This document shows, one piece after another, positions 3,401 through 35,859 of a stretch of DNA of 39,260 nt (positions are counted from its first letter, which is position 1; every line of letters begins with the position of its first letter). Below the pieces are notes generated by a model. That model saw only the letters and a program-made list of their open reading frames with translations, was not told the DNA's origin and did no database searches. A program made the translations under genes and the position numbers. The stretch lies in IMG/VR virus record IMGVR_UViG_3300043446_000252, positions 1 through 39,260 of that record; one strand, written 5' to 3'. Origin of the DNA: a virus.

Positions 3401-3813
3401 CTGCGCCAACAGCACTTGAGCCGCCGCCACCGCCCGATGCCGATCCTGATCCAAAAGAACCCCCTGCAAAACCTTGGCCCGAAACTCCTGTGCCGCCTGC
3501 CGTTCCTTCCGAGCCGCCGCCGCCCGAACCACCATTTTTTCCATTAGCAGGAGAAACAAGCGCAGCACCACCACCACCGCCGCCGGTGGAAGTGGTCGTG
3601 TTAAATACCGAATCCGAACCGTTGTTTCCTCTTGCATTTCCACCACTAACTGCCGCGCCGCCTGCACCAACTGTTACCGTGTAGGCTATGCCATACGATA
3701 GTAATTGCGAAGTTAAAGATTGATAGCCACCCGCGCCGCCACCACCGGACGTTCCTGATCCGCTATCCCTTGCATTGCCACCCGACCCACCCCCTGCTAC
3801 AACAAGGAAGTCA
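495..3813 (-). repeat. Four tandem glycine-rich modules inside the fibre gene
   Basis: The coding sequence divides at the four LVVAGG starts into units of roughly 3813-2995, 2994-2185, 2184-1341 and 1340-495. The unit length is 810-846 nt and always in frame. Units agree best at their ends (the LVVAGG start, and the TSTTSETVTFS end) and differ in the length of internal Gly-rich tracts. This is the pattern expected of in-frame duplication followed by divergence. Confidence 0.85.
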
Positions 3814-3863
3814 GCAGTGATGCCAGCGCCGCCCGTCAGGAAAAAGTTTCTAGCGGAAAACAT
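495..3863 (-). CDS. Glycine-rich modular tail fibre / adhesin, 1122 aa
   Basis: Predicted receptor-binding or fibre-tip protein. After a short leader (MFSARNFFLTGGAG) the protein is four tandem modules of about 270-280 residues. Each opens with DYLVVAGGGGGG (DFLVVAGGG in the first), runs through long Gly/Ser/Ala/Thr tracts containing YTVTVGAGG, GSSVTYAGGGGGG and a GSGVVI(I/L)K strand, and ends with a conserved connector including (G)VT and TATSTTSETVTFS. The last module stops exactly at SETVTFS. Similar glycine-rich sandwich domains are known from phage adhesins, where Gly-rich loops form the host-binding tip. Its start overlaps the preceding TAA by 1 nt (TAATG). Codon use is more AT-rich than in the fibre gene at 5.1-7.8 kb, which fits exchange of fibre modules. 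Confidence 0.85.
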   Translation of the reverse strand: MFSARNFFLTGGAGITADFLVVAGGGSGGNARDSGSGTSGGGGAGGYQSLTSQLLSYGIAYTVTVGAGGAAVSGGNARGNNGSDSVFNTTTSTGGGGGGAALVSPANGKNGGSGGGGSEGTAGGTGVSGQGFAGGSFGSGSASGGGGGSSAVGADGTSGASGAGGAGTANSITGSSVTYAGGGGGGASSNKTRGAGGTGGGGNGGNDGAAGSNGTANLGGGGGASGANGGTPSGAGGSGIVIIKVPSTAYATFSSGVTYSFSSAVSGYNIYSITATSTTSETVTFSTSPSADYLVVAGGGGGGAEVFTGLDYGGGGGAGGYRTANGLAITLGTAYTVTVGAGGTGAVARSTAPTSGSNSVFSTITSAGGGKAGSEAGGQASSGGSGGGGYAAGGTAGSGNTPSTTPSQGNNGAAGQGNGVAGGGGGGAGAAATTANGGNGSASSITGSSVTYAGGGGGGGTSSSGGTGGGGGGAASGTATSGTANTGGGGGGAGAVSSSGTGGAGGSGVVILRMPNTIFATFSSGVTYTFSGAVSGFNIYSITATSTTSETVTFSTSPTIDYLVVAGGAGGGGWGGGGAGGFRTSAGTSGGGAAAETSKSITLGTAYTVTVGGGGAGSGSVSAKGVNGSNSVFSTITSTGGGGGAGDGSLAVADGSSGGSGGGAGWYANTQRSGGSGTASQGYAGGSSNIDENNGGGGGGAGAVGGAGSSGVGGNGGNGVASSISGSSVTYAGGGGGGVAGSPGTRSTGGTGGGGAGGINLTTAAVAGTANTGGGGGGMPSNSWGAAGGSGVVILKVRDSIGAVFSSGVTKSLTNSSGFNIYSVTATSTTSETVTFRPNFLADYLVVAGGGGGGGNLGAGGGGGFRTSAGTSGGGASAESALTIVPGTNYTVTVGAGGARATTSPNQGSSGANSVFSTITSTGGGGGGGDTNINGLTGGSGGGGGGGATSGAGGSGTANQGYAGGSSNSDFATYTNGGAGGGAGAVGANATSSGGGNGGNGVASSISGSSVTYAGGGGGGVDQSAKTSGTGGTGGGGTGAKHPSTVATAGTANSGGGGGGGAYTTAYGSAAGGSGVVIIKIPDTYTATFSGGVTSSLSTAVSGYKIYTVTATSTTSETVTFS

Positions 3864-5122: not shown

Positions 5123-7821
5123 CAGAAAGTACCTCCAGAGATTCCGCCAGTGATCGCCCCGGTGGAAGGATTGCAAGTTATCGAAGAGTTTACCAACTGC
5201 CCCAAGTTGCCGGAAGTCGCGCTGACAAACGTCAGATAGTTCGTGGCATTGGTTGAGTTGCTCGTGATCGCCACGTTCGTCGCGTTCGTGGCCGTCCCGG
5301 CGGTTGCCGCATTCAAGTTGGCCACTTGCGTCGTGCTGGCCACCGTGAAAGGCGCTGTGCCGGTCGCAACGGTCGAGGTGATCACACCAGACGCGGAGAT
5401 GGTCGTAAACGCGCCCGACGTCGGGGTGGTTGCGCCTACCGTGCCGTTGATGTTGATTGAGGCCGTTCCGGTCAGGTTGGTGACCGTACCCGATGAGGGA
5501 GTGCCCAGCGCCCCGCCATTGACCACAAACGCCCCAGCGGAACCCACATTGGTTCCCAGCGCCGTCAGCACGCCTGTGCCGGTGTTGGTGGTCGAGGGAG
5601 CCACTCCAGCCCCGCCGCCGATCACCAGAGCATTCGCCGCCAGTGCGGAACTGGATGCAATCGTGGTCGAGCCTGAGAAGTACGGAATGCCGCCGCTGGT
5701 TCCGCCGCTCAGTCCGGTGCCGCCGTAGGTCACGCCGACCGTGCCAGAGGTGATCTGGTTGCCGTTGATCGCAATCGAGGTGTTGCTGGCGGAGGTGATC
5801 TGCCCCTGCGCGTTGATCGCAATTGTCGGCACGCTAGAGGCCGAGCCGTAGGTCGCCGCCGTGACGCCAGTGTTGCTGATGTTGAAAGTCGTCGCCGGGG
5901 ACAGATTCAGTCCCGTGCCGGCGGTGTAGGTGATCGGGGCGTTGAACTGCAGGAACACCAAGGCTGTCGTTCCCACCACAATCGGCAGTGTCGTCTGCTG
6001 CACCCACGCCGTTGAGGCGTTGGTTCCAGACAGAACCAGAACATAGTCGCCAGCGTCAATCTCGTTCGTTCCTGTGCCGCTGGTGTCGTAGTCTGTGGCA
6101 CGAGTCAGGATGAACGGCGTTCCCGCGCTACCTGCCTGCGTGACGGTATAGATGCCATTGTAAGGCTGGTTTGCTCCGGCCTCGTCCTTCACCAGCAGTC
6201 GTTGCGTCGCTGTCGGCGATCCGCCACCAAAAGACAGCGCGCCGTTCGCATTCGCGGTGATCGTTGCGCCAACCCCGGATGACCCGTTGTTGTAGGTATA
6301 GGCCGGCAGCGCGGCGGTCGATGCGTAATTGACCGGCTGGTGATAGTTCAGGCCAGAGGCAATCGAGTCAACATACTGCTTGGTGGCCGCCTGCAGGTCA
6401 GATGTCGGGTCTTGCGTCAGGGTGACTGAGGTCAGTCCGGCCAGCGTGGTCGTGGTTCCGCCCAGCGATACCGAGGTCGAGCCAATCGTCAGCGAACTGT
6501 TGGTAAGCCCACTGTTCGGGATGTTGGTAAAGGTGTTGGTTGACCCGCTGATCGACTTGTTGGTCAGCGTCTGGACTCCAGACAGCGTCGCAACCGTCGA
6601 GTCAATTGCAATCGTGACCGGCGACGAGCCGTTATACGAAGTGCCCGACAGCCCGGTGCCGATGGTCAGGGCATTGGTTGCCGTCGCAGTGATGGTGGTC
6701 GAGCCGCCCAGACTGACGGTCGATCCGTTGATCGTCACGGAGCTGTTGGTCAGGCTGCCGTTGCCGATGTTGGTCAGCGTGTTGGCCGATCCGCTGATGG
6801 TTTTGTTGGTCAGCGTCTGCGTGTCTGTCAGGGTGGCGACGACCGTGTTGTCGATGCTGATCGTGCCGGTCGAGGTGATCGGGCCGCCAGTGAGGCCGGT
6901 TCCCGTGGCCACCGAGGTCACACCAGAGCCAGAGGCCAGCGACGTCCATGCGCCGTTGATGTATCCCTCAAACAGCGCAATGTCGGTGTTGTAGCGCAAC
7001 ATGCCGTTGATCGGGACGCCTGCTCGCGCAGCCGTTCCGCCCTTTGGCAAGGTAACGCTCGCCGTGCCCGGAAGCACCGGGTTGTCTGCAATGCTGATCG
7101 TCGGGGTGGTCGTGCTGTTCACCACGGAGATCTGATCGGCCGTGCCAAGGACGTTGGTCACCGTTCCGCTGGTGACAGAGCCAGAGGACGCAGAGGTGAT
7201 CCGGCCAAAGCCATCGACCGTGATCGTTGAGTAGTTGTACGTTCCCGGCGTGACCGTGGTGGTGTCCAAGGCAATCGTCGGATTGCCGGCACCATTTCCA
7301 TCGGTCACCAAAATCTCGCCGGAGGTGCCGTAGATCTGGCGCCCAGCGATCAGCGATCCGCCCACCACCGCCAGCATCCCGGTGCCGCCGACAGACGCCA
7401 GCGCCGCAGGCAGGCCAGTCAAGGACAGGTCAGGGTTGCCCGAGACGCCATCGCCGTTGGTGACGCTCAATCCGTTGCCGCTGACCGTCACAGAGCGGGC
7501 CGTGACGCTGCCGGAGCCGGTCTTGGCTATCAATCCATTGCCGGCGGCTTCCAGCGAGCCAGAGGCGCCATTTAGCGTGATCTCAAGGGTGGATTGCGCC
7601 CCGTTGTCTACAAGCCCGACGCCCGTGCCGCCGGCCAGCGCGCGGCTGTTGGGCAGCGTCGGCTCCTGATTCAGCGTCAGGAAAGTCTGAGTCTGGCTCG
7701 GCGACGCAGCAATCGCGCCCGTGGTCGTCTGAACCGTCTGGCCATTCTGGACGATTGGAACGGCTTCGGTGCCGGTTATCGTCCCTGCCTGCGGGAGCTG
7801 AGTGATTTGTACATTTGCCAT
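5122..7821 (-). CDS. Large repetitive tail-fibre protein, 899 aa
   Basis: It begins MANVQITQLPQAGTITGTE, a short N-terminal motif shared with the gene at 10.3-10.9 kb and probably a virion-attachment segment. The middle is a low-complexity Ser/Thr/Gly beta-helix-like region with repeats built around TLTNKTISGS and GSTVSLGGSTTI. Around residues 480-640 is a globular module (ATKQYVDSIASGLNYHQPV through NGIYTVTQAG and TRATDYDTSG) found in many phage fibres. Further Gly/Thr repeats follow to the end. No enzymatic motif is visible. Its TAA overlaps nothing downstream except the next ATG by 1 nt. This is likely the main fibre or tailspike shaft of the virion. Confidence 0.85.
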   Translation of the reverse strand: MANVQITQLPQAGTITGTEAVPIVQNGQTVQTTTGAIAASPSQTQTFLTLNQEPTLPNSRALAGGTGVGLVDNGAQSTLEITLNGASGSLEAAGNGLIAKTGSGSVTARSVTVSGNGLSVTNGDGVSGNPDLSLTGLPAALASVGGTGMLAVVGGSLIAGRQIYGTSGEILVTDGNGAGNPTIALDTTTVTPGTYNYSTITVDGFGRITSASSGSVTSGTVTNVLGTADQISVVNSTTTPTISIADNPVLPGTASVTLPKGGTAARAGVPINGMLRYNTDIALFEGYINGAWTSLASGSGVTSVATGTGLTGGPITSTGTISIDNTVVATLTDTQTLTNKTISGSANTLTNIGNGSLTNSSVTINGSTVSLGGSTTITATATNALTIGTGLSGTSYNGSSPVTIAIDSTVATLSGVQTLTNKSISGSTNTFTNIPNSGLTNSSLTIGSTSVSLGGTTTTLAGLTSVTLTQDPTSDLQAATKQYVDSIASGLNYHQPVNYASTAALPAYTYNNGSSGVGATITANANGALSFGGGSPTATQRLLVKDEAGANQPYNGIYTVTQAGSAGTPFILTRATDYDTSGTGTNEIDAGDYVLVLSGTNASTAWVQQTTLPIVVGTTALVFLQFNAPITYTAGTGLNLSPATTFNISNTGVTAATYGSASSVPTIAINAQGQITSASNTSIAINGNQITSGTVGVTYGGTGLSGGTSGGIPYFSGSTTIASSSALAANALVIGGGAGVAPSTTNTGTGVLTALGTNVGSAGAFVVNGGALGTPSSGTVTNLTGTASININGTVGATTPTSGAFTTISASGVITSTVATGTAPFTVASTTQVANLNAATAGTATNATNVAITSNSTNATNYLTFVSATSGNLGQLVNSSITCNPSTGAITGGISGGTF

Positions 7822-16793: not shown

Positions 16794-19304
16794 TCAACCT
16801 CTCAGGTTTCGTTGGATTTCTTCCTGCAGAGCGAGCGCAGACTCTCCCTGCTCCTTCTTCAGCCTTGCGGCTTCCAATGTCAGATCGAGGGTATCGATCC
16901 TCTCCTTGGTCAGATTGTTCTCGGCGTTCATCGCTGCCTCGAACTGCATCTTCTGCTGCTGCTCGACCATCTTCTGCTGCATCTCGGCCTGCTTGATCTG
17001 CATGTCGGCCTGATCTCGGGCGGCGCGGCGCTGAGTCTCGGCCATCGAGGCCTGCAACACGGCCTGCGCGTCGCCGTCCATCGGCGGCTGGGGCGGCTTG
17101 AACTGCTGGGCGATCTGCAGCATCTTGGCGATCTCCGGCATCAGAGCTTGGAACTGCTCCTGCGCGTCCAGCTTCAGGTGGTCGGAGGCGATGGCCATCG
17201 TCTTGTCGATCTCGTGCTTGACCTTGGAATCCTCGTACTTGACCTTCTCGACGCCGGCCGGGATCGTGGTGTGCCGGTTCATCTGCTGGGTGTACCAGAG
17301 CATCATGTGCTGCTTGATGTGCTCCAGAGCGCGTGGGATGTACGAAGGCGCCACAATCGGGTTGGCGCCCAGCATCTGATCGGTGCCGAACAGGCAGTGC
17401 GCCTTGAGGTGCGCCAGATGGTCTTGGTCGGGGTAGGCCGTGGCCATCCGCCCCATCGCCATCGCCGCGTTCTCGTCGGCCGCGTGCATCTCCATCGGCT
17501 TCTGGTACTGCGGCATCAGCTCCTGAATGTTGGGCACCTTCATCTGCTTCAGGGAGCGCGCCAGCACCGCGCGGGCGTCGAACAGGCCGGGGTACTGCTT
17601 CATGTACGCCATGACGGCCTGAGTCTGAGCCATCCGCTGCGTCTCGGAGAAGATGTGCGGATCGGAGACCGGCAGCACATCCGTGTTGCGCTTGAAGTCG
17701 CTGGCCTTGATCGGCAGCTCGGCCACAATGTCGCCGCGCTTCTGGTCTTCCAGATACCAACGGTTCAGGCGCTGCAGGATCATCAGCACCTTCTTCTGGC
17801 TGTTGTGCAGCCGGGCATGGATGGCAGAGAACACCGCTGCGCCTTGCTCAATCAGCGCCTGCGTCGTTCCGACAGGGGCGTTGGCGTTCACGTCCGCAAT
17901 CTTCTCCTCGGAGGTCGTGACGACCCCTTTGGCGGCCGTGGTGAGCCATCCCAGCAACTGGAACAGCACCGCCGAGGGCGGGTTGAACGGCATCGGCATG
18001 GCAATCTTGCGGATGTCGTCCACGCCGGGCGCGCCCTCGATCTCCACCACCTGCGTCACATCCACCCGCTGGCTCTGGCCGGAGATCTTGCCGCCCTTGA
18101 GCTTCAGCATGGTAGCGGCGTTGTTGATGTGCGCCGAGTCCAGCAGCGCCCGCAGGGAGCCGGTCAGCGCCGCCGACAGGCCGCCGATCAGGTGCGGCAG
18201 GCCGATACCGTAGCCGCCGCGCCACGGGATGAACTTGAACTCCACGATCCAGTCCAGCTTGGTCATGGTGTCGTCGCCGTCTTCCCAGTTGCGGTACAGA
18301 CCCACAACCTCACGATCCAGCTCGTCAATCATCAGGATGTAGGGGGCTGACTCGCCCTTGGTCAGCGGGTCTTCTTCCAGCTCCAGCCAAGTGTAGACGG
18401 TGAACACCCGGCGGGTGTTGTCCTCGTTGTCCTGATACTGCTTGCCCTCGATCTTCTGGTTGGCCTTCTCCGGGCCAGTCGGCTCCGGTTCCAGCGAGGT
18501 GCGGTACAGGCTGATGTCGCGGTACAGGCCTCGGTCGATCCGGCGCTTGAACTCCCACTCCGAGATGTCCTCCACCTCGGTGATCCGCTGGGCGGTGTAG
18601 AAGTTGATGGCCGAGAACGGCATCAGGATGTTGTCGATGGGGATGAACTGGCTGCACGGGCGCTTGAGCTTGTCGTCCCAGTACAGCTTGATGAACTGAG
18701 ATCCGCCCATCGGGAGCTGGGTCAGCATCTGCTCCTGCTCGTCCCGGAACTCTTCGATCTGGTCGGTCAACTGCCAGTTCATGTAGTCGCGCTTGCGCTC
18801 GGCGATCTCCTGCTTCTCGTCGTTCACATCGCCCAGAATGTTAGTTCGCACCGGGCCGTCTGGCGGGAACAGTTCCTTCACCGCACGGGCAGCAAAGTCC
18901 ACGCACGCCTCGGCCATCGCCGGGTGAACCACCTTGCTCGCGCCCTCGAATTCAGCGCCACCGGGGGCGTCATTGCCCAGACCAGTGCGGCGCAGGCCAT
19001 CCTCGTACTGCTTGTCACGATCCTTGCGCGCCTGCTTGTCTTTCTCCAGCAGATCAAGGTAGCGGATGCCGATGCCGTCCAAGTCGCCCATGTCCATCGA
19101 CTCGGCAAGGTTCTCATAGAAGTCCTCGCTCTCGGACGGCCCCTTGAATTCATTCTCCATCGTGACGACAGCAGAACCGTCGGCCAGCTCTTCAATTTCC
19201 GGCGTCTCGTTGGGCAGCTCTACCTCAGCGCCACCGTCCTCGTTCATCTGAACGCCTTCGATGAAGCGATCCTTCTCCGGATCAATCGGCATCTCAATTG
19301 CCAT
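16794..19304 (-). CDS. Portal protein, 836 aa
   Basis: Predicted dodecameric portal at the packaging vertex, of the large podovirus type. An acidic N-terminal arm (residues 1-80) precedes the core: RRTGLGNDAPGGAEFEGASK, VVHPAMAEACVDFAARAVKE, LFPPDGPV, QLPMGGSQFIKLYWD and FIPIDNILMPFSAINFYTAQ, then ITEVEDISEWEFKRRI. A middle region follows with WIVEFKFIPWRGGYGIGLPH and NINNAA-type helices (LDSAHINNAATMLKLKGGKI). The last 200 residues are a long Gln/Met-rich helix (AEMQQKMVEQQQKMQFEAAM), typical of the portal barrel. GAGGAAG precedes the ATG. It is encoded after the polyvalent proteins and before the co-chaperonin and scaffold. Confidence 0.88.
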   Translation of the reverse strand: MAIEMPIDPEKDRFIEGVQMNEDGGAEVELPNETPEIEELADGSAVVTMENEFKGPSESEDFYENLAESMDMGDLDGIGIRYLDLLEKDKQARKDRDKQYEDGLRRTGLGNDAPGGAEFEGASKVVHPAMAEACVDFAARAVKELFPPDGPVRTNILGDVNDEKQEIAERKRDYMNWQLTDQIEEFRDEQEQMLTQLPMGGSQFIKLYWDDKLKRPCSQFIPIDNILMPFSAINFYTAQRITEVEDISEWEFKRRIDRGLYRDISLYRTSLEPEPTGPEKANQKIEGKQYQDNEDNTRRVFTVYTWLELEEDPLTKGESAPYILMIDELDREVVGLYRNWEDGDDTMTKLDWIVEFKFIPWRGGYGIGLPHLIGGLSAALTGSLRALLDSAHINNAATMLKLKGGKISGQSQRVDVTQVVEIEGAPGVDDIRKIAMPMPFNPPSAVLFQLLGWLTTAAKGVVTTSEEKIADVNANAPVGTTQALIEQGAAVFSAIHARLHNSQKKVLMILQRLNRWYLEDQKRGDIVAELPIKASDFKRNTDVLPVSDPHIFSETQRMAQTQAVMAYMKQYPGLFDARAVLARSLKQMKVPNIQELMPQYQKPMEMHAADENAAMAMGRMATAYPDQDHLAHLKAHCLFGTDQMLGANPIVAPSYIPRALEHIKQHMMLWYTQQMNRHTTIPAGVEKVKYEDSKVKHEIDKTMAIASDHLKLDAQEQFQALMPEIAKMLQIAQQFKPPQPPMDGDAQAVLQASMAETQRRAARDQADMQIKQAEMQQKMVEQQQKMQFEAAMNAENNLTKERIDTLDLTLEAARLKKEQGESALALQEEIQRNLRG

Positions 19305-22300
19305 GTTTCTTCCTCAGTTGTTTGTCCCACACTGCAAATTGCATCGCGTCGTGATCACAATCACAGCTTACCGCGCCGCCTTTGGCATAACCGGCTTCGT
19401 TTCCGATGATATTTCCTGCGGCGTCGTACTTGAGACGCTTACCCTCGGGGACGATCATATTGTGCAGACGCTGAATCTCTTCCCCTGTCAAAATGTGCGG
19501 AATATCTGCCGCTCCAGCTTCTTGCAGTCGCGCTAATTCTTGATCACTAAACACAGAACTCTTCGCTCGCATGCCTGTGTTTTGTATGTCACCCACATCA
19601 CTCCACTGACCCGACCGCACAAAGTCCTGCACGAACGGCAGATATTCCTCGTTGGGCTTGCGGTTGCCTTTGCCTTTGATTTGGACGATCTCGGATGGGA
19701 TATTTCCTTCTGGGTATCTTGCTTGATATGCCGCCAATCCTTGCAAAGATTCTCCCGGCCGCACTTCAATCGTCACATGCGGCTGACCCTTGGCATCGCG
19801 CAGCGAGTAGATGCGCGTCTTGCCAGCAACGACATCCGGGCAGTAGCCGCCAACGCAGTGACCCATCGTTTCGCCTTCGTACTTGAGGGCGTCGGCGAGA
19901 GGATCAACTCCGGAAGTTTGTTTGAAGGAGGCGAGAAGGTCTGCATCGGTAGAACCTTTGGCTTTCAAAGCGTCGTATAGCTTTTGGTCACCCGCGCCTA
20001 ATGTTGACCTGTCAATAGATGTGGGCGTCCTTAACTCCACCCACCGCAACCCGCGCTCGTTGGGCAAGTCGGTTCCGGGGATGGTCGGATACTCACGATG
20101 AACAACGGTGGCCGGATTCATGGCCAGAGCCGCATTGGCCTCGGCCTTCTGCGCTTCGCGCCATGCGTTGATCTTGGCCACCCGCTCCACGGCTTGCGAC
20201 ATCGACAGCTTGGACAGGCTCTCCGGCTTTATCTGCAGCTCTCGCGGCAAGCCAGACAATGGGTTGATTGCGTTTTTCAGCTCGTCAACGATGTGGTCAA
20301 AGCCCAGATATCGGGCACCCATGTTGTCAGTTGGGCGAAAAATTTTGGTCTGCGGGTCTGCTTCTTTCATCCAAGGTTCAAATGCCCACTCCGCCCAAGG
20401 CATACCAATCTTCCTGCTTTCTTGTACATCCTTGATGGTGAGAGGATTTATTGCCACATCAGTGGCATCCTCCCACGCTTGCGCCTCTGGCGACTGACCA
20501 AGTCGAGGTGTGCCAAGCCTTTCACGAACACGATTGGCATTGGATTCAGTTGCATTTAAACCCATCTGCTCGGGCGGCATGTGAACGATGCCCTGCTCGG
20601 CCAACTTGCGGACGGGATCTTCAGGCGTCGCCATCTGCTTCTTGATGTAGTTGGTGAGATTGCGCTCAATCCACTGGTTGATTGGATCAGGCGGGTTCTG
20701 AACGGCTCTGAAGCCACCGGGAGCAGTTTGATCTCTGACCATGTGAACATCTAGCCTTGGATCCTCAGGCCCCACTTTTAGCGGCTTGAGTACTTGCTCC
20801 ACACTTCCCATCAACCAGTTGCCGCCCGGCTCCTTGACAATGCTCGGCTTCGCAAACGGCTCGGCCGTCATGCGGTTCTTCATCCGCATCAGGGACTTGC
20901 CAGCACGAATCAAGTCACCGCCTCTGGCCATGTGAACAGCGCCGCCCTCAGCGCGCTTCTTGATCTGCTTGTTCTGCACGGCCATCCACATGGCGTCCTT
21001 GCTGACTTGGCCGCCCTTGGCTTTCTTTTCTTTGGCCAGCAAGTCAGGCGCAGCCACCCCCATTGCCGCCGCAGTGGCCGCATTGATGCGCCAAGGATCG
21101 AAGGCAGCAAAGCGTGAGCGGATGTTGTCCGGATTCAAGCTGATGCGATGCTCTTTTCCAATGTTGAGCTGTTGATTGCCAAATTCTGGAGTGTGGCGTA
21201 TTTCATCAACGCCAAAATGCCGCAAGAAATTCCCGGCAGCAACACCGCCCGACACCAACTCTCCTGAGTCGGGGTCGTACAAAATATCTCTGTTGCCCTT
21301 CTTTATTTCGTTGAACAAATCTCTTGCATTGACAGGCTCTCCGTCGCCCAAGTCCCAAACGGCCTCGCGAATTCGGTTGGTGTCTCCACCCATCGCACTG
21401 AATTCATCAAGCGCCCGATTGAAAGTTTCCGTGTGCGGCGTGTCAACATACTGATCGAGCGCCTCATCGTAACGCTCAAACGGCCCAACCTGTACGGGGT
21501 TCTTTTCTGGCGCGTCCAGATGGATTGATTTGTCAGAACGAATCTTCAGCGGGTACACCACGCCAGCATTCTGAGCGTTTAATGTTTGCCTTAACAAAAT
21601 TTCTTCCTGCCTTGGAGTCAGCGCCTGATCTTGTAATCGGCCGATAGTTCGCCGCCAATTTTTATCGCTTTCATCAAAATACCGATTGATTTTTGTTTCA
21701 ACATCCGGCCCATAAACGTTCGCATAGTTGATGCTCGCGTCCTTCGGGCTGCTTGTCGAATACACGCCTTGGCCTGCAGCAGATTCGGTTGATGCTTTGT
21801 TCAGGTTGAACTTTTGAATGTCATACAACGAGCCGTGATACGAGTCGTCAACAAAGCCCATCGCCTTGGCTCGTTGCTCTGCCGTGTTGTTCTTGGGAAG
21901 CCCAAGCCCACCTTGCGATACAGGCAACGCCGCACGCTGCTGCGCCAGACGCAACGCTTCCTCCTGCGGGGCCTTGAACAGCGCCTTGGCGGCTTTCTTG
22001 ATGATGCCACCGCCAGCGTACTGCGCCGGCTCCTCTTCCTGCATGGCAGCGCCAGCGCCAATCGCCACAGGCGGCGCTACCTGATACAGCGGCATGCCCT
22101 TGGTCGTGATGTCTTCACGCATCTGCGGGGTGATGTCGAACGAGTGGACTGGGTTCACCCGCGTCTGGAATTGATTTATAAACATACGGCGTTGATACGG
22201 ATTCATTTCTGCCGCTTCTTCTGCGGTGATGTAGCCCTCATCCACAGCTTCTTGAATATCGCGTAGCGGATTCTTTCTCGGCACAACCAAGTCATGTGTG

Positions 22301-23694
22301 CCGACCGTAACGCCGTATTTCTTGCCGTAATCGTTCAGGTATGAGGGCACGATCTGATCGTAAAAACCTGTCATGCCTTCGCCGCCGACATTGAGGTCAA
22401 CACCGGCTATCTCGCGCCAGTCTCTATATCCACCACCTACCTTTGCACCCTCATCTGCTTCAATTTTTTTTGCCAAACCCTTGCCAACCAGTTCTTCTAT
22501 TCTTGAGAGCGGTATTTCGTCTTCTTCAATAACAGGGACACCAGCTTTGTTGAAGGCAACAAATTCGTATTGTCCAGAAGTGCCGATTGGTTCGTATTCA
22601 ATCTTACTTATTTGTTTGCTTAGGTCATACCGCTTCGCCTGCTCCGCTCCGGGCGTGATCACCACTTTGTCATAGCCGTTGCGTGCAGCATCATCGAGCA
22701 GGCGCTTTATCACTAGCTCGTGCCAGTTCTGCTTGAAGGGGGCGTCGGGCAGCTTTTGTCCTTGCTTTCCTTCAGCAGCAATTCGTTGTGCTTCAGCTTT
22801 CCCCCAGCCCAAATCCGCCGTGGTTCCATCGCTCCATCTTACGCCGTAGGTTCCGTCTGGCAATTGAAACGGCTCACCAGTTAACCTTGGCGACTCACCT
22901 TCTTTAAGGTAACCGAAGTCTTGCGGCACTCGCTCGCTTGCCGTGGCTTTGTCGATGCCTTCCGCTTTCATCAGACGCTTGATCTCATTCTTTCGAGCAT
23001 CCCTTGCAGCCTGATGCCAGTCTGACTGGATCTCGTCAATCAACAGAATCTTCTTGCCCTTGTCGTAGTAGTCAGCAACGCGAGCATGAGCCAAGATATT
23101 CTTCTCATCAAAGTGCCCGCTCTCGTACATATCTGGCGTGCGCGGTAACGCAGCAAGCTCTTTCCGCAGCCTTGCAATTTCTTGTTCAGAATGGGCAATA
23201 CTTGGAATTGCATCGACGCTCAGATGCGGGAACTTGGCCATGCGTTCGTTTTGATAGCCTATGCCCTGATACAAATTCCTGATCTGATTAGACAGATCTG
23301 CGTTTCTCTCTGCCGCCGGATTGGGCAGGCGCAGCAGAATGTTGCGGCGATTCTCTCCGCCGGGCATTTGCCATTGCTCGTACTCTGTGGTGTCGGACTC
23401 CCTGTGCTGCACTTGCGGCGGCGGATTCTCAGCGGCCACCCGCTCCAGCTCCTGCTTCGTGACCTTGGGTTGCTCCAGCGCCTTCTTGATGGCCGGCCGA
23501 TCCTTCAGCTCCTTCGCCACGCCCTTGGTCTTCATCAGTTCGGCCAGCATCTGGGCGCCCGTTCCCTTGCCCTGCGTGATGTTGGCAATCGCCTGATCCA
23601 CCGGCGAGTAGAACGGTTTTCCGCGAGCGGCTTGCTCTCCGACCTTGCGTACCAGAGTTGATGCCAGCGGCCTCAGAGCTTTTTCCAGAGCCAT
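19294..23694 (-). CDS. Giant polyvalent protein: LPD + ADP-ribosyltransferase-like + PcfJ-like, 1466 aa
   Basis: Predicted multidomain effector delivered with phage DNA. Domains in order: (1) residues about 100-380, a large polyvalent protein-associated domain with YEQWQMPGGENRRNILLRLP, ILLIDEIQSDWHQAARDARK (Asp220 onward), PDAPFKQNWHELVIKRLL and NGYDKVVITPG. (2) Residues 615-870, an ADP-ribosyltransferase-like domain: DSYHGSLYDI with His620-Gly621, then GQGVYSTS (Tyr645) and DASINYA. (3) Residues 1230-1360, a PcfJ-like domain: YEGETMGHCVGGYC (His1279, Cys1280), IYSLRDAKGQPHVTIEV and EIVQIKGKGNRKPNEEY. Linkers carry YAGGGIIKKAA and the DAMWMAVQNKQ motif (residue 900; repeated at 1449). Start overlaps the previous gene by 1 nt. 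Catalytic activity is unproven. Confidence 0.75.
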   Translation of the reverse strand: MALEKALRPLASTLVRKVGEQAARGKPFYSPVDQAIANITQGKGTGAQMLAELMKTKGVAKELKDRPAIKKALEQPKVTKQELERVAAENPPPQVQHRESDTTEYEQWQMPGGENRRNILLRLPNPAAERNADLSNQIRNLYQGIGYQNERMAKFPHLSVDAIPSIAHSEQEIARLRKELAALPRTPDMYESGHFDEKNILAHARVADYYDKGKKILLIDEIQSDWHQAARDARKNEIKRLMKAEGIDKATASERVPQDFGYLKEGESPRLTGEPFQLPDGTYGVRWSDGTTADLGWGKAEAQRIAAEGKQGQKLPDAPFKQNWHELVIKRLLDDAARNGYDKVVITPGAEQAKRYDLSKQISKIEYEPIGTSGQYEFVAFNKAGVPVIEEDEIPLSRIEELVGKGLAKKIEADEGAKVGGGYRDWREIAGVDLNVGGEGMTGFYDQIVPSYLNDYGKKYGVTVGTHDLVVPRKNPLRDIQEAVDEGYITAEEAAEMNPYQRRMFINQFQTRVNPVHSFDITPQMREDITTKGMPLYQVAPPVAIGAGAAMQEEEPAQYAGGGIIKKAAKALFKAPQEEALRLAQQRAALPVSQGGLGLPKNNTAEQRAKAMGFVDDSYHGSLYDIQKFNLNKASTESAAGQGVYSTSSPKDASINYANVYGPDVETKINRYFDESDKNWRRTIGRLQDQALTPRQEEILLRQTLNAQNAGVVYPLKIRSDKSIHLDAPEKNPVQVGPFERYDEALDQYVDTPHTETFNRALDEFSAMGGDTNRIREAVWDLGDGEPVNARDLFNEIKKGNRDILYDPDSGELVSGGVAAGNFLRHFGVDEIRHTPEFGNQQLNIGKEHRISLNPDNIRSRFAAFDPWRINAATAAAMGVAAPDLLAKEKKAKGGQVSKDAMWMAVQNKQIKKRAEGGAVHMARGGDLIRAGKSLMRMKNRMTAEPFAKPSIVKEPGGNWLMGSVEQVLKPLKVGPEDPRLDVHMVRDQTAPGGFRAVQNPPDPINQWIERNLTNYIKKQMATPEDPVRKLAEQGIVHMPPEQMGLNATESNANRVRERLGTPRLGQSPEAQAWEDATDVAINPLTIKDVQESRKIGMPWAEWAFEPWMKEADPQTKIFRPTDNMGARYLGFDHIVDELKNAINPLSGLPRELQIKPESLSKLSMSQAVERVAKINAWREAQKAEANAALAMNPATVVHREYPTIPGTDLPNERGLRWVELRTPTSIDRSTLGAGDQKLYDALKAKGSTDADLLASFKQTSGVDPLADALKYEGETMGHCVGGYCPDVVAGKTRIYSLRDAKGQPHVTIEVRPGESLQGLAAYQARYPEGNIPSEIVQIKGKGNRKPNEEYLPFVQDFVRSGQWSDVGDIQNTGMRAKSSVFSDQELARLQEAGAADIPHILTGEEIQRLHNMIVPEGKRLKYDAAGNIIGNEAGYAKGGAVSCDCDHDAMQFAVWDKQLRKKHGN

Positions 23695-26600
23695 CAGAAC
23701 GGCCTTTCTTCCACGATCAGGTCATCAGAGGTCATGCCGCCCTCGGCTTTGTGAACGACGCCGCCACGAGCCATCTCGACATCTCCTATGATGGCCGATG
23801 CCGGGATGATGAACTCGCTGTCGTCTTCCCCTTGCTGTGAGCGGACGCGGTAGCCGGGTTCGTAGGGCGTGCGCTTGGCTCTTCCCGTTTCCGGATCTTT
23901 GATCTGCTTCATGCCGCCACCACTGGTGTCGTACATGATCTGATTTCCCACCCGGGTGCGCTCAAGGATTTCGTAGGGATTTCGGTTCTTGGCCGCGCTG
24001 TCTTTGGTGAACACGCGCTGACCCTTGTCGTACTTGTAATCAAAGCCTTCCATCATCTTGTTGGCCTCTGCCACACCCTCCCGGATGCGGTCGCCCAGTG
24101 AGGTGTGGAAGTCTTGCAGCGTGGTCAGATCCTTGGCGGCAGTCACAGGCCTTGCCATGCCAGAGCTTTCTGCCGCCTTGCCGATGATTTGGCCGGCCTT
24201 TTTCATAATCCCACCGCCAGCTTTGTGGACGGTGCCGCCCTTCTTCCACTCACGCGGCTTGTCAGCGCCGGCCGACTTCATTACACGATCCAGCCACTCC
24301 TGATCGAATGTCTGGAACTGAGGAGAAAGGCTGAACGAACGCCAGTCCGATCCTTCTGGCTTGCCAAACAGGCGACGCTTGTCGGCGAACTCTTGGAAGA
24401 TGTTGCGGTAGTCAATCGGCTGACCGAGCGATCCGAAATACTCGCCGGCCAACGCGACAGGGTAGGTCTTGTGGCCACGCGGCGTCTGTTCCAGCGCGCG
24501 CGCCGCCGGATCAATGGTGCCCACGGTGAAGCCAGCCGATCCGGTCGGCACATCCACCAGCAGAGGCTCTGTCGTGGCCAGACGCGATGCCGGGACATCC
24601 GGAAAGCCTGCTTCTTGGAAAGGAGCCTGCCCCATGCGCTCCACAAACGCCTTCCGCAGCGGGCCAGCGCCCTCGGCCAGCATCTTTGCCCTGAGCGCCT
24701 CGACATCGTTCAGGTCGGCTTCAGTCAGCACGGAACCGGGCTTCAGGTGCGGCTTGTCAGGATCTGGCGCGTAGTTGCGGATGTCCTTCAGGAATTCCTT
24801 CTTGGCCTTTTTGGTCAGCGCCGTGGGGTCGTACTGATTCAGGATGGCCTCGGTCACCATCGTGTTGTAGTTCACATTGGTCGGTGCGCCAACCACATTC
24901 ACGCCATAGATCGGGCGCCCCATGTCTCTGGCGAACTCCACCTGCTTTTGCAGTCCGCTGATCACGCCCTTGCCAGAGCGCCAGATCGAGCTTTCCGGCG
25001 ATCCGGGGATGGTGTGGGTCAGCATGTAGTCTGGGCCAGCCTCAAGCGTCAGCGGGCTGCGAAACGGTATCCCTTCAACGCTGGTCAGCAGCGTGCCACC
25101 TGCCGCCCTGTCACCGACCAGCGGGATGCCGATGCCGCCCTGCAAGTCTTCCGGCGTGATGATCTTGCGCTGCACGCCCTTGACCGTCGGGTCTTTCATT
25201 GTCTCGAACTGCATCAGCTCGACCGGCTTGGACAGCTTGATACCACCGCCAATCGGGTGATACAGGCCAGCCTCTACCTGCGCTGCCTTGGCGCGGGTTC
25301 CCTTGGCAATGTCGAACAGGCGCTTGGCCTCTTCTGCCGTACGCCCCGCGCCTTTCATCCATCCGCCCATGCCCTTACGCTGCACCTGTTTGTCCCACGC
25401 CGCCATCTGCATCGCATCGCGAGACACGGTGCCGCCATCGCGGAACAATTGCTGGGCTGGCCTGACGATCTGCTCCTCCAGCGGGACATCGTAGTCCGTG
25501 GCAGGCGGAGTCTGCGCACGCTCTGTGACGCCCATGTTCCTGCGGGCTTGCGTGGCGCGTGCCTCTGCCTCTCCTGCAAGGCGCTCGTAATACTTCGTGG
25601 CCGCGTCTGCTTGCAGGGACGGCCCCATCTTCTTCACGATTGCAGGGATTGACGCCTTGTACTGCTCGTACCCTTTCTGAATGTCGTTCAGATGAGAATA
25701 CCTTTGCGCGTAATCTTCAAACGACATCGGGGTTAATGCGACATTGCGAAGCTCTTGCAGTATCTGGTGCGCCTCGGGATGCTGGAAGGCTGTGACCGTG
25801 CTGCCTCCCGGCGCCCATCCCTCGATGCCTTGGATGGCGTGCTGCATCTCATGCAGGATTGATGACCTTGGGTCGTCCCTCAGTCCCGGCTCGTAAATGT
25901 TGATGTCCACATCATTCTTGCCCTGAACGATGCCGGCTTTCGCGCCGCCCAGACCCTTGCCGCCTTGCACAACCACGGCTTTGCTCAACTCAGGATAGGC
26001 CGCATACAGCTCTGGATGCTCCAACGCATACGGCGCAAAGTTCCCTCGCCATTCAGGATTGGTCTCCGGGCCGTGCATGGCCGTTCGCTCTTCACGCAAT
26101 CCCTTGGCCTTCGCTCGGATGTCCTTTTGCGCGGCAGTCAGTTGTTTCGGAAAAAGATCAGGGTGCAACTTGCTCTGGGCAATCGCCAGCTTGTAGGCGT
26201 CCTCCTGTCCCTTCATGCCGGCGGCCAATGCCTTGATCTCATCAGCCTTGCGGAACTGAGCGGGCTGGTCGGAGATCTCCTGCCGCCAGTTGCCATCCGC
26301 CGCTTTGAATGTCCCAGTGGCCGCCCAGATCTCCTGCGGAGACTTGCCGGCGCGTTCCATCTGTTGGGCTTTTGATGCGGCGGCAGCGTTCCATGCGGCG
26401 GACTTGGGGCCGATGAACATGAAGTTCGGCCGGGCAGGAGCCAGCGCCGATCCCAGCAAGCCTTCGCCAGTCATCATGGCCTCGTCAATGCGACGGCCAG
26501 CTTCCTTGCCTACCGCCTTGGCTCCACGGCCTACGCCACGCGCCAAGCTCGGCAGAGCGGCCACGCCCTCGCCCAGCGCATACATATTGCCGCCAGTGAT

Positions 26601-27698
26601 GCCGGCCTCATACTCGGGCATGCTCCGACCGATCATGCTGTCGGCCTTGGGCGCGAACAGCTCTTGCACCTGCTCGGTGGACGGCAGCGCCTGCAACGAT
26701 GCCGGGGCGGATCGGAATGACTCAGGCTTGAACTCTTCGTACAGACCAACGATGTCGCCGGGGGCGCCGAGGATCTGCGAGCCATAGCCTGTCAGCGCAC
26801 CAACGGCACCGGGCACTGCCACATTGGCGACGCGGCTCGGGCTGATCAGATCGGATGTCAGTTGCTCTCGCGCTGCCTGCTGGTTGGCCAGCATCTCGCG
26901 ATAGTCCTTCTCGAACTGGGATACCTTCGTGGTTCTGGGCTGCGGCATTGCTGCCGGGGCGCCAAGTGCTTTGAACTCGTTGATGTCCCTGCGCTTCACC
27001 TTACCACCGTCCGCAAACGGCTCAGGCAGCTCAGGACGGTTGCCTGCAGTCATTCCGCGCCGCTCAAGGTTCTGGTGTTCAGAGGCTGACAAATCAATTG
27101 GCAACAATGACCGGCTTTCAGGCGTGACGAAACGATTGAGGCCAAGCTCTTGTTTCAATGCCTCAAGGTACTCTTCTTGCGATCTGCGCGGCATGTGTTC
27201 TCTGAGCGCCGCTCGAGGCAACAGACTCCACAGCGTTGATTCATGCCCAAGCTCATCCATTGCGATGTTGCGGTGGCGTCCTTCATGCCCAGAGATGTTG
27301 GGCAGCCATTCTGGCGCTTGGCGGTTGATTTCAAGAAACGGAACATCTGCCGCGCCACCGCCTTGGGGGGACATCTCCCACCAGTATCGTTCGACGGCCG
27401 GGCGATACGGCTCTTCGAGCTTTGCTGCGAATCGCTGAAACTCTGCCGGCTTGCCGATCATCAGTGCCTTGGCGTTGTCGCCAAGGAACGCGCTTTTCAA
27501 TGCGTCCAGCTTGAACTGCTGCTCAAGGTTTTTGATTTCGTCAGCGGCCTTCTGCACGCGCTTGGCGCCGTACTGACCCTTGCTCTCCAAGACGGCCTTT
27601 TCCAGCTCTGACAGCTTGCCGGGGACAATGACAGATGGAGCGGAGCGCAACTGCTTGAGTGCGGCAATGGCTTCAAGCGCCTTGGTTGACTTGGGCAT
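23694..27698 (-). CDS. Giant polyvalent protein with zincin-type domains, 1334 aa
   Basis: Predicted internal virion or injected protein. Residues 110-150 include WLPNISGHEGRHRNIAMDEL (His138, Glu139, His142), a HEGRHR element common in phage polyvalent proteins. Residues 450-625 contain EIWAATGTFKAADGNWRQEI and then SSILHEMQHAIQGIEGWAPG, a zinc-metallopeptidase HExxH (His616, Glu617, His620). Residues 800-1150 form a further globular region (IPGSPESSIWRSGKGVISGL, NYNTMVTEAILNQ) I cannot name. Short disordered linkers FADGGKVKRRD, LFRDGGTVSRDAMQMAAWD, KKGGTVHKAGGGIMKKA and MARGGVVHKAEGG link domains. It lies between terminase and the 1466-aa protein. Processing by its own zincin is possible but untested. 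Confidence 0.72.
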   Translation of the reverse strand: MPKSTKALEAIAALKQLRSAPSVIVPGKLSELEKAVLESKGQYGAKRVQKAADEIKNLEQQFKLDALKSAFLGDNAKALMIGKPAEFQRFAAKLEEPYRPAVERYWWEMSPQGGGAADVPFLEINRQAPEWLPNISGHEGRHRNIAMDELGHESTLWSLLPRAALREHMPRRSQEEYLEALKQELGLNRFVTPESRSLLPIDLSASEHQNLERRGMTAGNRPELPEPFADGGKVKRRDINEFKALGAPAAMPQPRTTKVSQFEKDYREMLANQQAAREQLTSDLISPSRVANVAVPGAVGALTGYGSQILGAPGDIVGLYEEFKPESFRSAPASLQALPSTEQVQELFAPKADSMIGRSMPEYEAGITGGNMYALGEGVAALPSLARGVGRGAKAVGKEAGRRIDEAMMTGEGLLGSALAPARPNFMFIGPKSAAWNAAAASKAQQMERAGKSPQEIWAATGTFKAADGNWRQEISDQPAQFRKADEIKALAAGMKGQEDAYKLAIAQSKLHPDLFPKQLTAAQKDIRAKAKGLREERTAMHGPETNPEWRGNFAPYALEHPELYAAYPELSKAVVVQGGKGLGGAKAGIVQGKNDVDINIYEPGLRDDPRSSILHEMQHAIQGIEGWAPGGSTVTAFQHPEAHQILQELRNVALTPMSFEDYAQRYSHLNDIQKGYEQYKASIPAIVKKMGPSLQADAATKYYERLAGEAEARATQARRNMGVTERAQTPPATDYDVPLEEQIVRPAQQLFRDGGTVSRDAMQMAAWDKQVQRKGMGGWMKGAGRTAEEAKRLFDIAKGTRAKAAQVEAGLYHPIGGGIKLSKPVELMQFETMKDPTVKGVQRKIITPEDLQGGIGIPLVGDRAAGGTLLTSVEGIPFRSPLTLEAGPDYMLTHTIPGSPESSIWRSGKGVISGLQKQVEFARDMGRPIYGVNVVGAPTNVNYNTMVTEAILNQYDPTALTKKAKKEFLKDIRNYAPDPDKPHLKPGSVLTEADLNDVEALRAKMLAEGAGPLRKAFVERMGQAPFQEAGFPDVPASRLATTEPLLVDVPTGSAGFTVGTIDPAARALEQTPRGHKTYPVALAGEYFGSLGQPIDYRNIFQEFADKRRLFGKPEGSDWRSFSLSPQFQTFDQEWLDRVMKSAGADKPREWKKGGTVHKAGGGIMKKAGQIIGKAAESSGMARPVTAAKDLTTLQDFHTSLGDRIREGVAEANKMMEGFDYKYDKGQRVFTKDSAAKNRNPYEILERTRVGNQIMYDTSGGGMKQIKDPETGRAKRTPYEPGYRVRSQQGEDDSEFIIPASAIIGDVEMARGGVVHKAEGGMTSDDLIVEERPF

Positions 27699-33323: not shown

Positions 33324-33445
33324 CGCTTGGGCTTCAGCAGAGAGTCCGTCGGCATGCACATCCGATAGTAGACATACATCAGAACTCCAACAATCCAAGC
33401 GACAAGGCCGCTGGCAGCGAAAAAGTAAAAGATGAAGTCAATCAT
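33320..33445 (-). CDS. Single-pass membrane micro-protein, 41 aa
   Basis: ATG at 33445 overlaps the upstream stop (ATGA) and its own TGA overlaps the next ATG in the same way. Sequence begins MIDFIFYFFAASGLVAWIVG, continues VLMYVYYRMC and ends with a short basic tail (LLKPKR). One transmembrane helix of about 22 residues followed by a positively charged end predicts N-out/C-in orientation. Double coupling argues for real translation. Function unknown. Confidence 0.65.
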   Translation of the reverse strand: MIDFIFYFFAASGLVAWIVGVLMYVYYRMCMPTDSLLKPKR

Positions 33446-34272: not shown

Positions 34273-34523
34273 TTCATACTTTGGCGCTTGATTCTGAGAC
34301 TCTCTTCGATCATCTTGTCCTCCACCATCAGGCAGTTTCGGCACATCTTCCCAGAGGCTGTAGTTTGCAGGTTCCATCGGCTTCCCACTTTCTGTCCGTT
34401 TTTTCTCATCCCACTGACCACCATGCACAAGGTGTCGCCAGTTTCCCTGAATTCATCGATCAGTTGACTCTCGCTTACTATGTGGCTCAGTGACTTTCCC
34501 TTTTGCGTGTGTACTGCATACAT
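34269..34523 (-). CDS. Hypothetical phage protein with CxxC, 84 aa
   Basis: ATG at 34523; sequence MYAVHTQKGKSLSHIVSESQ, then LIDEFRETGDTLCMVVSG, MRKNGQKVGSRWNLQ, and KMCRNCLMVEDKMIEES. A regular small alpha/beta pattern with a CxxC. The same frame stays open upstream to 34790, but that part is Arg/Gly/Pro-rich and coincides with the non-coding block, so I start here. No good ribosome-binding site is visible, which lowers certainty. Confidence 0.5.
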   Translation of the reverse strand: MYAVHTQKGKSLSHIVSESQLIDEFRETGDTLCMVVSGMRKNGQKVGSRWNLQTTASGKMCRNCLMVEDKMIEESLRIKRQSMK

Positions 34524-34847
34524 GGTTGCGCTCGCTCGTTGATTGCTACTTGCTCGGTCTTTCTCTTGGGATAATGCTTCAGCGACAATGCCTTTGAACA
34601 ACCTCGGTGCTTCGCGTAGCCTCAAGTCCAAACCTAACCCACCGGGCGCCCGAAAAAATCGCCTTCGGGCGGCTGTCAGCGGTTTATCTAGACTCGAATG
34701 CCTTAGTGGTCTGATCCACAAACTCCAGCATCCTCCGGGGCGTCCTCTCGGTTCCCGGCTGCTGCCTCCCTCGCAGGAGACAGTGGTCATCGTTTATTGA
34801 GCTGCGACAGCTACAGTTATTCAGGGCTGGGTCATGGCCCCCGCTTG
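34524..34847. other. Non-coding stretch with GC-rich hairpins
   Basis: No convincing gene on either strand. On the minus strand there is a CGCCCGAA / TTCGGGCG inverted repeat around 34648-34672, whose inner part (CGCC-CGAA-GGCG then ATTTTTT) is a possible weak terminator. There is also a small hairpin GTGG-ATCAGA-CCAC near 34710-34723. An open frame of about 90 codons crosses this block and the RNA to its right but has unusual composition. It may be part of the same RNA element. Confidence 0.5.
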
Positions 34848-35002
34848 CCCAAAAGAAAAACCCATCACGGCTGGGCTTCAGGCTGCGGCGGAAGAGAACG
34901 GAGGCACAGCTAAAATTCTCGACAACCGAAGCCCATGCGTGATGGGTCTTGCTGTGCATCTCCGTTCGCGCTTCCGACGCGAGCCTGATTTTTCTCTCAG
35001 AC
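34848..35002 (-). ncRNA. Candidate structured small RNA, about 150 nt
   Basis: Bounded by a good promoter (35009-35037) and a terminator (T5CT4 at 34850-34859 after CCCA...TGGG). Two long complementary pairs are interleaved in order A-B-A'-B' on the minus strand: A 34951-34967 with A' 34896-34910 (15 pairs, 2-nt bulge), and B 34929-34947 with B' 34860-34878 (17 of 19 pairs). This can be a pseudoknot or two alternative folds; B' alone also forms the terminator hairpin. It lies in the gap after the primase stop. C4-type antisense RNAs of phage P1/P4-like elements also act by two interleaved complementary pairs, but I do not claim homology. Confidence 0.65.
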
Positions 35003-35008
35003 AGGGTG

Positions 35009-35037
35009 ATACTAAATTGCTTTTTCCAGCTTGTCAA
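35009..35037 (-). promoter_or_regulatory. Promoter for the structured RNA
   Basis: Minus strand: TTGACA (35032-35037), 17-bp spacer, TAGTAT (35009-35014); start expected near 35002. The spacer contains GAAAAAGCAATT, related to but weaker than the operator family at 31.07, 32.48 and 38.52 kb. It begins 7 nt past the primase stop codon, which points to a separate transcript. Confidence 0.78.
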
Positions 35038-35043
35038 CTACTT

Positions 35044-35859
35044 TTACAACGCCTCCCTCATCAAAGCCACCAGCCCCCAAAGACCCGTGCGCTGGTGCAG
35101 ATCGTTCGCATCCTCGCCCTCGATGGGCGACATCAGCCACGGCAAACCAGTGGCTTCTGCGACCTTCTGGCCAGTCCCAGATCGATCATGGTCGGCGAAC
35201 ACCATCCGGTTCCCACCGATCCTCTCGGCCACATACTGCAAGTTGCCGGCTGAGAAGCAGACCAGCACCGCATCCTGCCGATACATTGATTTCAGCCCCT
35301 CTAGCACCGACAGCCCAGTGGCATAGCCTTCGACCAACCAAGTCCAGTCGGCGATCTTCGGCCCGAGCCGGAACACGGCGCCCTTGGCTCGTCCACCGGG
35401 CATGAACTTCTTCTCGCCCTCCCGGCTTACTGACTGCAAGCTGACAATCGCGTTGGTCTTGTAGTCGCGCATTGGGATCAGCAGGTTGTCGTCCAGAATC
35501 AATCCTGTGGCCTTTGGGAAGCCTTTCTTGACCAAGTAGGCATGACCACCCAGTTCGGCGCTGGAAAGCGCCAGAGCGGCCTTTTTGGCGGCCTGAGCGT
35601 ACTTCCTGTCCTGCTCCCTCTGGGCGGCGTACATGTCCTTGATCTGGCGCTCGCCGACTCGGATTGCCCCGTCTTCCCGCCACGAGGCGAAGTTTTCCAT
35701 CGTCGCCCAGTTCTTGACCACGCCCCGCCGGCCGTCGAACAGGTACGCCCCGTTCTTCTTGCGCGGCTTGTCGATGGTCGATACCCGGTGCCATTTCCCA
35801 TCCTGATACAGCCGGTCAATGATCAGGCCGTTGTTTGCTGCGAAGTCGAGGAAGTTCAT
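35044..35859 (-). CDS. Toprim-domain primase, 271 aa
   Basis: Predicted DNA primase or primase-like replication protein. The N-terminal region (residues 1-75: MNFLDFAANNGLIIDRLYQD, GAYLFDGRRGVVKNWAT, NFASWRED) is a shortened substrate-binding part; no complete CHC2 zinc finger is present. The Toprim domain follows: WTWLVEGYATGLSVLEGL with Glu177-Gly178, VLVCFSAGNLQYVAE, MVFADHDRSGTGQKVAE with Asp223-His-Asp225, and EGEDANDLHQRTG. Its ATG overlaps the helicase stop (ATGA). Helicase plus primase as separate coupled genes suggests the phage initiates its own replication. Confidence 0.85.
   Translation of the reverse strand: MNFLDFAANNGLIIDRLYQDGKWHRVSTIDKPRKKNGAYLFDGRRGVVKNWATMENFASWREDGAIRVGERQIKDMYAAQREQDRKYAQAAKKAALALSSAELGGHAYLVKKGFPKATGLILDDNLLIPMRDYKTNAIVSLQSVSREGEKKFMPGGRAKGAVFRLGPKIADWTWLVEGYATGLSVLEGLKSMYRQDAVLVCFSAGNLQYVAERIGGNRMVFADHDRSGTGQKVAEATGLPWLMSPIEGEDANDLHQRTGLWGLVALMREAL

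Follow-up and report, generated by a model that had tools for sequence, protein, structure and literature searches.

A pseudoknotted phage RNA family with a hypervariable self-complementary stem, supported by covariation in uncultured viral contigs

Between the Toprim primase gene (35044-35859) and the nuclease genes of the window, which here means the whole analysed stretch of 39,260 nt, the minus strand carries an element without a convincing gene, and the question raised by this locus is whether it is a gene for an RNA, how such an RNA would fold, and what it could do for the phage. An earlier note, made from the letters of the DNA, had described a structured RNA that stands alone between a promoter and a terminator of its own and in which two pairs of complementary segments alternate in the order A-B-A'-B', and it had offered an attenuator, a trans-acting antisense RNA or a decoy as possible roles. 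The parts of the element are as follows:

34851-35002, minus strand: the RNA, a predicted transcript of about 152 nt (covariance model R1 matches 34852-35003 with 138.8 bits)
35009-35037, minus strand: sigma70 promoter (TTGACA at 35037-35032, 17-nt spacer, TAGTAT at 35014-35009)
34983-35002, minus strand: hairpin P1 at the 5' end, with an A-rich loop (GUCUGA-GAGAAAAA-UCAGGC)
34967-34981, minus strand: hairpin Pa (CGCG-UCGGAAG-CGCG), with compensatory changes in 4/4 pairs
34971-34976, minus strand: 5' strand of pseudoknot Pb, the Pa loop CGGAAG, whose partner is 34889-34894
34951-34967, minus strand: V, the A of the note, a hypervariable 5' strand that pairs with V'
34928-34947, minus strand: B, 5' strand of the long helix, which pairs with B'
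34911-34927, minus strand: joining segment L2 (GGUUGUCGAGA..), conserved, its 5' part unpaired
34896-34918, minus strand: hairpin Pc, which holds V' in its loop, with compensatory changes in 4/4 pairs
34896-34910, minus strand: V', the A' of the note, a hypervariable 3' strand within Pc that pairs with V
34889-34894, minus strand: 3' strand CUUCCG of Pb, in the segment after A'
34878-34883, minus strand: 3' strand GCCUGA of helix P2a, the alternative partner of the P1 3' strand (34983-34988)
34860-34879, minus strand: B', 3' strand of the long helix, which pairs with B and is directly followed by the U-run
34851-34860, minus strand: U-run of the intrinsic terminator (TTTTTCTTTT)

The element has the look of an RNA gene that is transcribed independently between defined ends, because both the promoter and the U-run are fixed among its homologues. 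The earlier note had placed the promoter correctly; transcription is predicted to start at about 35002 in the window element, and the spacing to the RNA is kept in nearly all of the 53 distinct homologues, as the -10 box of the promoter-like site ends 5 nt before position 1 of P1 and of the model in 45 of 53, and the -35 box starts with TTG in at least 52 of 53. The mean hexamer score at these sites is 9.0 of 12, as compared to 7.3 in shuffled DNA. At the other end, the longest T run after B' reaches at least 4 in all 53 and at least 5 in 52 of the 53 distinct sequences. The element has a folding energy of -72.6 kcal/mol versus -51.1 ± 4.6 kcal/mol in dinucleotide shuffles (z = -4.7, 0/200). 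A protein-coding gene is rejected, since no frame is conserved among the homologues: the lengths of the 53 distinct elements fall into all residues modulo 3, and open frames occur about as expected or moderately above expectation (maximum on the plus strand in 20 of 53 versus about 11). The view that the region lacks a convincing gene therefore agrees with the homologues, in which no frame is under selection, and the fixed promoter, the U-run and the covariation described below uphold the reading as a stand-alone structured RNA.

Some further observations concern the window itself. Downstream of the RNA and before the nuclease genes, the minus strand has a terminator-like inverted repeat at 34640-34680 (GCCGCCCGAAGGCGATTTTTTCGGGCG). 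The gene at 495-3863 (minus strand) encodes a glycine-rich protein of 1122 aa, which is internally repetitive (about five long repeats) and probably belongs to the tail, and two very large open reading frames (1466 and 1334 aa) lie at 19294-27698 (minus strand) between the portal and terminase genes. A peptide near 33398 had raised the suspicion of an Illumina adapter or chimera, and no adapter was found.

Is the element confined to this phage? A primase search of viral contigs gave six relatives (L002 to L007, with L005 and L006 almost identical) that have a homologous element downstream of the primase gene, and further members were found by patterns taken separately from the B core and from B'; the first pattern used in the viral contigs was too loose to be informative (at least 120 stretches). 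Loci recovered by one of the two patterns carry the other conserved part too, and the conservation is thus not merely a product of the search; in the columns that the patterns prescribed, part of the invariance comes from the search itself. Covariance model R1 gathers 69 uncultured viral contigs with 53 distinct sequences at E < 1e-12, and each of the 18 carrier records that were scanned over their full length holds one copy, secondary matches there being weak antisense echoes. Nucleotide searches gave no match with the window element in phage and plasmid collections, nor with the diverged members L171 and L150 in the phage collection, and no cultured phage carrying the element was found in the phage collection with these three queries. 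A pattern scan of genome contigs returned a single chance match in a Butyricimonas MAG, with a pattern too narrow for most members. As to known families, no Rfam match was obtained in the window at 34300-35100 with E up to 10, and the C4 and IsrK models found nothing at the Rfam gathering score in the window or in 45 relative loci, nor at E up to 1 in five further loci; the element is therefore not filed under C4 or IsrK.

The hand-built structure was counted on a MAFFT alignment and again on the larger model alignment. In the larger alignment, 96.9% of cells are paired and 27 of the 35 pairs have changed on both strands; the count of double-change cells is 220, as compared to 55.4 ± 9.8 after shuffling and no more than 20 in the slid controls, and permutation of cognate partners gave 0/1000 for every helix tested. 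All 6 pairs of P1 are compensated (98.6% of cells paired, permutation z -7.2), and the Pa stem changes for example to GCCA/UGGC in L185 and to GUGA/UCAC in L153. The pseudoknot Pb, which is absent from the model used for aligning, is likewise compensated in 6/6 pairs (92.9% paired, z -13.1). For B:B', the claimed 17 of 19 pairs became 18 of 20 in a longer span of the window, with two mismatches (CA/GC) that recur in homologues; 98.5% of cells are paired and 7 of 15 pairs compensated (z -13.9), L004 alters both strands together (UCCCAGCG/CGCUGGGA), and L006 has one extra compensated pair. The 15 pairs claimed for A and A' were also confirmed, with one 2-nt bulge in the window, and cognate V:V' duplexes have a mean energy of -14.85 kcal/mol versus -6.68 kcal/mol in permuted combinations (z -23.8, 0/1000). 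A covariance model from related phage contigs had been proposed in the note as a check; in the homologues, both pairings recur with compensatory changes. L2 is partly fixed by the search pattern, yet it is present in loci that came from primase homology or from the B' pattern. In L212, Pc is a 10-bp hairpin with V' in a 9-nt loop, an arrangement that supports a loop-to-linear contact between V and V' and a real pseudoknot formed by the interleaved helices. The V:V' duplex of the window is longer and competes in part with Pc. By this covariation, A-B-A'-B' is predicted to be a true pseudoknot in which both helices of the note are real.

The sequence also encodes a strand exchange, as P1 and P2a are mutually exclusive. 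The P2a strand in the tail of A' overlaps the first 2 nt of B', and its pairing with P1 is found in 84.4% of cells, with 24 double-change cells versus 10.8 ± 2.8 (0/500) and a z of -6.7, as compared to +4.6 for the control pairing. P2a is weaker than the other helices. The note had proposed either a pseudoknot or a switch between two folds; the pseudoknot stands on strong covariation, and an exchange is encoded as well, but between P1 and P2a and not between the two pairings that had been named. The hairpins P1 and Pa, the second pseudoknot Pb, the hypervariability of A/A' and the weaker exchange helix go beyond the note. What the alignments show is a new RNA family, absent from Rfam, with a predicted fold supported by covariation, and the existence of the RNA and of its pseudoknots appears practically certain.

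The genomic position of the element varies. It follows the primase gene in the window group and in L138, a P22-type cro gene in L134, L158, L169 and others (Pfam P22_Cro, 5e-16), a C5 cytosine methylase gene in L172 and others, and terL in L185, and it precedes terS in L148 and a helicase gene in L167, L182 and L187. In the contexts read, it always runs in the same direction as its neighbour genes. With its own predicted promoter, it is behaving like an autonomous phage RNA cassette, similar to a moron (an accessory gene with own promoter). In 15 loci (L006 at 6044-6165, L134, L137, L142, L157, L158, L159, L165, L169, L170, L171, L173, L185, L186 and L191), another RNA, the Rfam orphan Betaproteobacteria-1 RNA (RF02932), begins 4-8 nt after the U-run. 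Like the new RNA, RF02932 is a phage-borne structured RNA, but it is a separate one that occurs alone too: it is also present in L010, L011, L195 and L196, and it is found without the new RNA in Acidovorax phage AP1, MW202545, L010 and L011. In MW202545 (L196), it adjoins a tRNA cluster. The record of the window has no match to its covariance model, and a literature search found nothing on the new element or on the function of RF02932. Immediately upstream of RF02932, a consensus promoter is absent in three of the four loci AP1, MW202545, L010 and L011, and in the 15 linked loci none is seen between the U-run and the start, where 4-8 nt leave no room. Transcription past the U-run therefore seems needed. 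In L160, L172, L174, L193 and L194, it is a DUF1376 gene that starts at the U-run, and its Shine-Dalgarno-like sequence (AGAGG/AGGGG) lies in B', where it would be masked by the B:B' pairing.

Downstream regions other than RF02932 have no excess of folding energy and were dropped as candidates for structured RNAs. In L007, L138, L148, L154 and L146, RF02932 is replaced by another conserved non-coding stretch about 100-250 nt after the RNA, which by eye has a tRNA-like acceptor/T-arm look, such as AUCGUCA..UGACGAU-CCA in L138; nothing was found in it from Rfam, nor by ARAGORN in the loci tested. In L169, the pair of RNAs is immediately followed by a gene for a Mom-family protein (Pfam Mom, 7.7e-36), about 370-1030 nt from the RNA start. 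Together with the DNA methylase gene before the RNA in L172 and others, this gene makes it conceivable that the site may be a spot for DNA-modification genes.

Which mechanism could connect such a fold with such neighbours? Of the roles that the earlier note had offered, the attenuator stays the best single idea, and our tentative reading, which could well turn out otherwise, is a promoter coupled to a conditional terminator, from which a stable small RNA would arise as well. In the nascent RNA, P1 and Pa would fold first, while V would stay single-stranded until Pc presents V' in its loop; V and V' could then anneal, followed by Pb. As the last step, B' would pair with B, and the resulting long helix ahead of the U-run would terminate transcription and leave a compact, end-protected small RNA. 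Alternatively, the A' tail would invade P1 and form P2a, and as this overlaps the start of B', the exchange would delay B:B', so that the polymerase would read on into RF02932 or the next gene. Two products would thus arise, one of them short and stable, the other a leader made by read-through. In the weakest step of this scheme, V:V' may serve as a specificity module that pairs with itself within each phage and not with relatives in the same cell, an idea to which the variability of V itself points. It is mainly the linkage to RF02932 and the DUF1376 starts at the U-run that make us prefer a conditional terminator over a purely trans-acting RNA. Against it stand the presence of B:B' in all members, as the element may simply always terminate, the weaker pairing of P2a and the lack of excess folding in downstream regions other than RF02932, and a promoter of RF02932 could escape the consensus scan. 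Formally, the proposed system resembles IsrK of the Salmonella Gifsy-1 prophage, whose transcripts partly read through the terminator and whose short form acts in trans (PMC4825925). Both are phage-carried, are flanked by a dedicated promoter and terminator and have alternative structures; a short stable form and a read-through form that reaches downstream genes, as in IsrK, are proposed for the new RNA. Unlike IsrK, the new RNA is multiply pseudoknotted with a hypervariable self-complementary stem, most of its carrier records have no lysogeny genes, and no Rfam match or covariance-model relation connects the two.

What alternatives exist for a conditional terminator? A somewhat doubtful one, which nevertheless deserves serious weight, is a purely trans-acting small RNA moron that always terminates and whose compact product would use its invariant segments (the CA/GC internal loop, L2 and the P1 loop) to bind a factor of the host or phage. 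It could work as a decoy or in anti-defence, with V diversified by an arms race. The own promoter and terminator are what such an RNA would have, the internal-loop and unpaired positions are among the most conserved, no one neighbour gene is common to all of the varied genomic positions, and V alleles are swapped between backgrounds. For a simple decoy, however, neither the fixed spacing of 4-8 nt to RF02932 nor the P1/P2a exchange pairing would be expected. Small pseudoknotted RNAs of relevance to phages are also known from type III toxin-antitoxin systems, i.e. ToxI-type RNAs and their phage mimics (PMC3475682). Unlike these, the new RNA has no tandem repeats that we could see and no consistent partner gene. 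The ToxI-type RNAs presumably have a different fold as well.

The variability of V and V' calls for an explanation of its own. Between L162 and L166, the rest of the RNA is identical (107/107 nt) and the upstream 255 nt agree to 98%, and the V arms are random-like (60%); between L135 and L191, the upstream 255 nt have an identity of 1.00 and the downstream region of 0.97, V is 50% alike, and the differences in B/B' are compensated. The window and L002 share 106/106 nt of the core and 247/250 nt downstream, and their V is different. Conversely, the same V occurs in different surroundings (L157/L173, L151/L172 and L154/L191), and some close pairs have kept V (the same in L158/L179, one base apart in L150/L182). 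V:V' is thus swapped wholesale between some near-identical elements, always with the cognate partner, a pattern that, on sequence comparison, fits recombination of whole V-V' alleles better than steady hypermutation. A target of V or V' elsewhere in the same contig was looked for, and none was found (longest match on average 9.4 nt in the own versus 9.1 nt in other contigs); for lack of any excess, an antisense role of V or V' against a second site of their own phage was rejected. It is imaginable, if rather improbable, that V and the V' loop mediate an RNA-only self/non-self recognition between co-infecting phages, in which mutual recognition, in cis or through homo-oligomers, would be confined to RNAs of one lineage and those of other lineages would be ignored or sabotaged, with V alleles selected for diversity and traded among phages by recombination. 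A purely neutral drift of a stem that has to pair, without any specificity and whatever the function, is quite unlikely: complementarity is maintained and sequence is not, and V is unchanged in some close pairs, but V alleles that are 50-60% alike beside identical or nearly identical flanks (L135/L191 and L162/L166) exclude steady drift as the cause, whereas allele recombination can produce them.

An equally slim chance is given to an immunity system like P4 CI/seqA or P1 C4, in which the V' loop of a resident phage would pair with the V of an incoming one and cause early termination. The logic of the new RNA would be similar to P4 CI RNA with seqA/seqC, with complementary segments in one leader, an independent RNA, pairing that is possible in cis or trans, and termination as the likely output (PMC4825925); the differing V alleles of near-identical phages would suit it, and so would the place in an early operon, behind a P22-type cro gene, that one group shows. 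In contrast to P4 CI RNA, the new RNA has a dedicated promoter at P1, no second target copy of V was found outside the RNA in its contig, and lysogeny genes are nearly absent from its carrier records: a phage integrase was found in 2 of 49, and a resolvase and an S24 repressor in 0 of 21 each, in records that include several of 43-60 kb and of which many may be fragments. The P1/P7 C4 antisense RNA is a phage regulatory RNA with paired segments, too, but the new RNA fails the Rfam C4 model, isrK matches are equally absent, and no antirepressor gene was recognised beside it in the contexts examined, whose neighbours are partly annotated. On these grounds, membership in the C4/P4-type immunity RNAs, with which the earlier note had compared the element, is not supported. 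Finally, a replication primer or R-loop RNA near an origin, with V as incompatibility determinant as in ColE1-type plasmids, would agree with the helicase and primase genes adjoining the element in several groups and with a G-run before the U-run at the 3' end, but is highly unlikely, as the element also occurs away from replication genes, behind terL in L185 and in front of terS in L148, and the window shows no GC-skew switch at the element.

The analysis thus adds a covariation-supported structured RNA family in 69 viral contigs, which often stands right before another orphan phage RNA, and the fixed linkage to Betaproteobacteria-1 RNA makes both RNAs testable together. Small RNAs do not usually have one paired stem replaced allelically while the rest stays fixed, and the replacement of V:V' points to recognition, exclusion or an arms race that would be carried out in RNA and not in protein.
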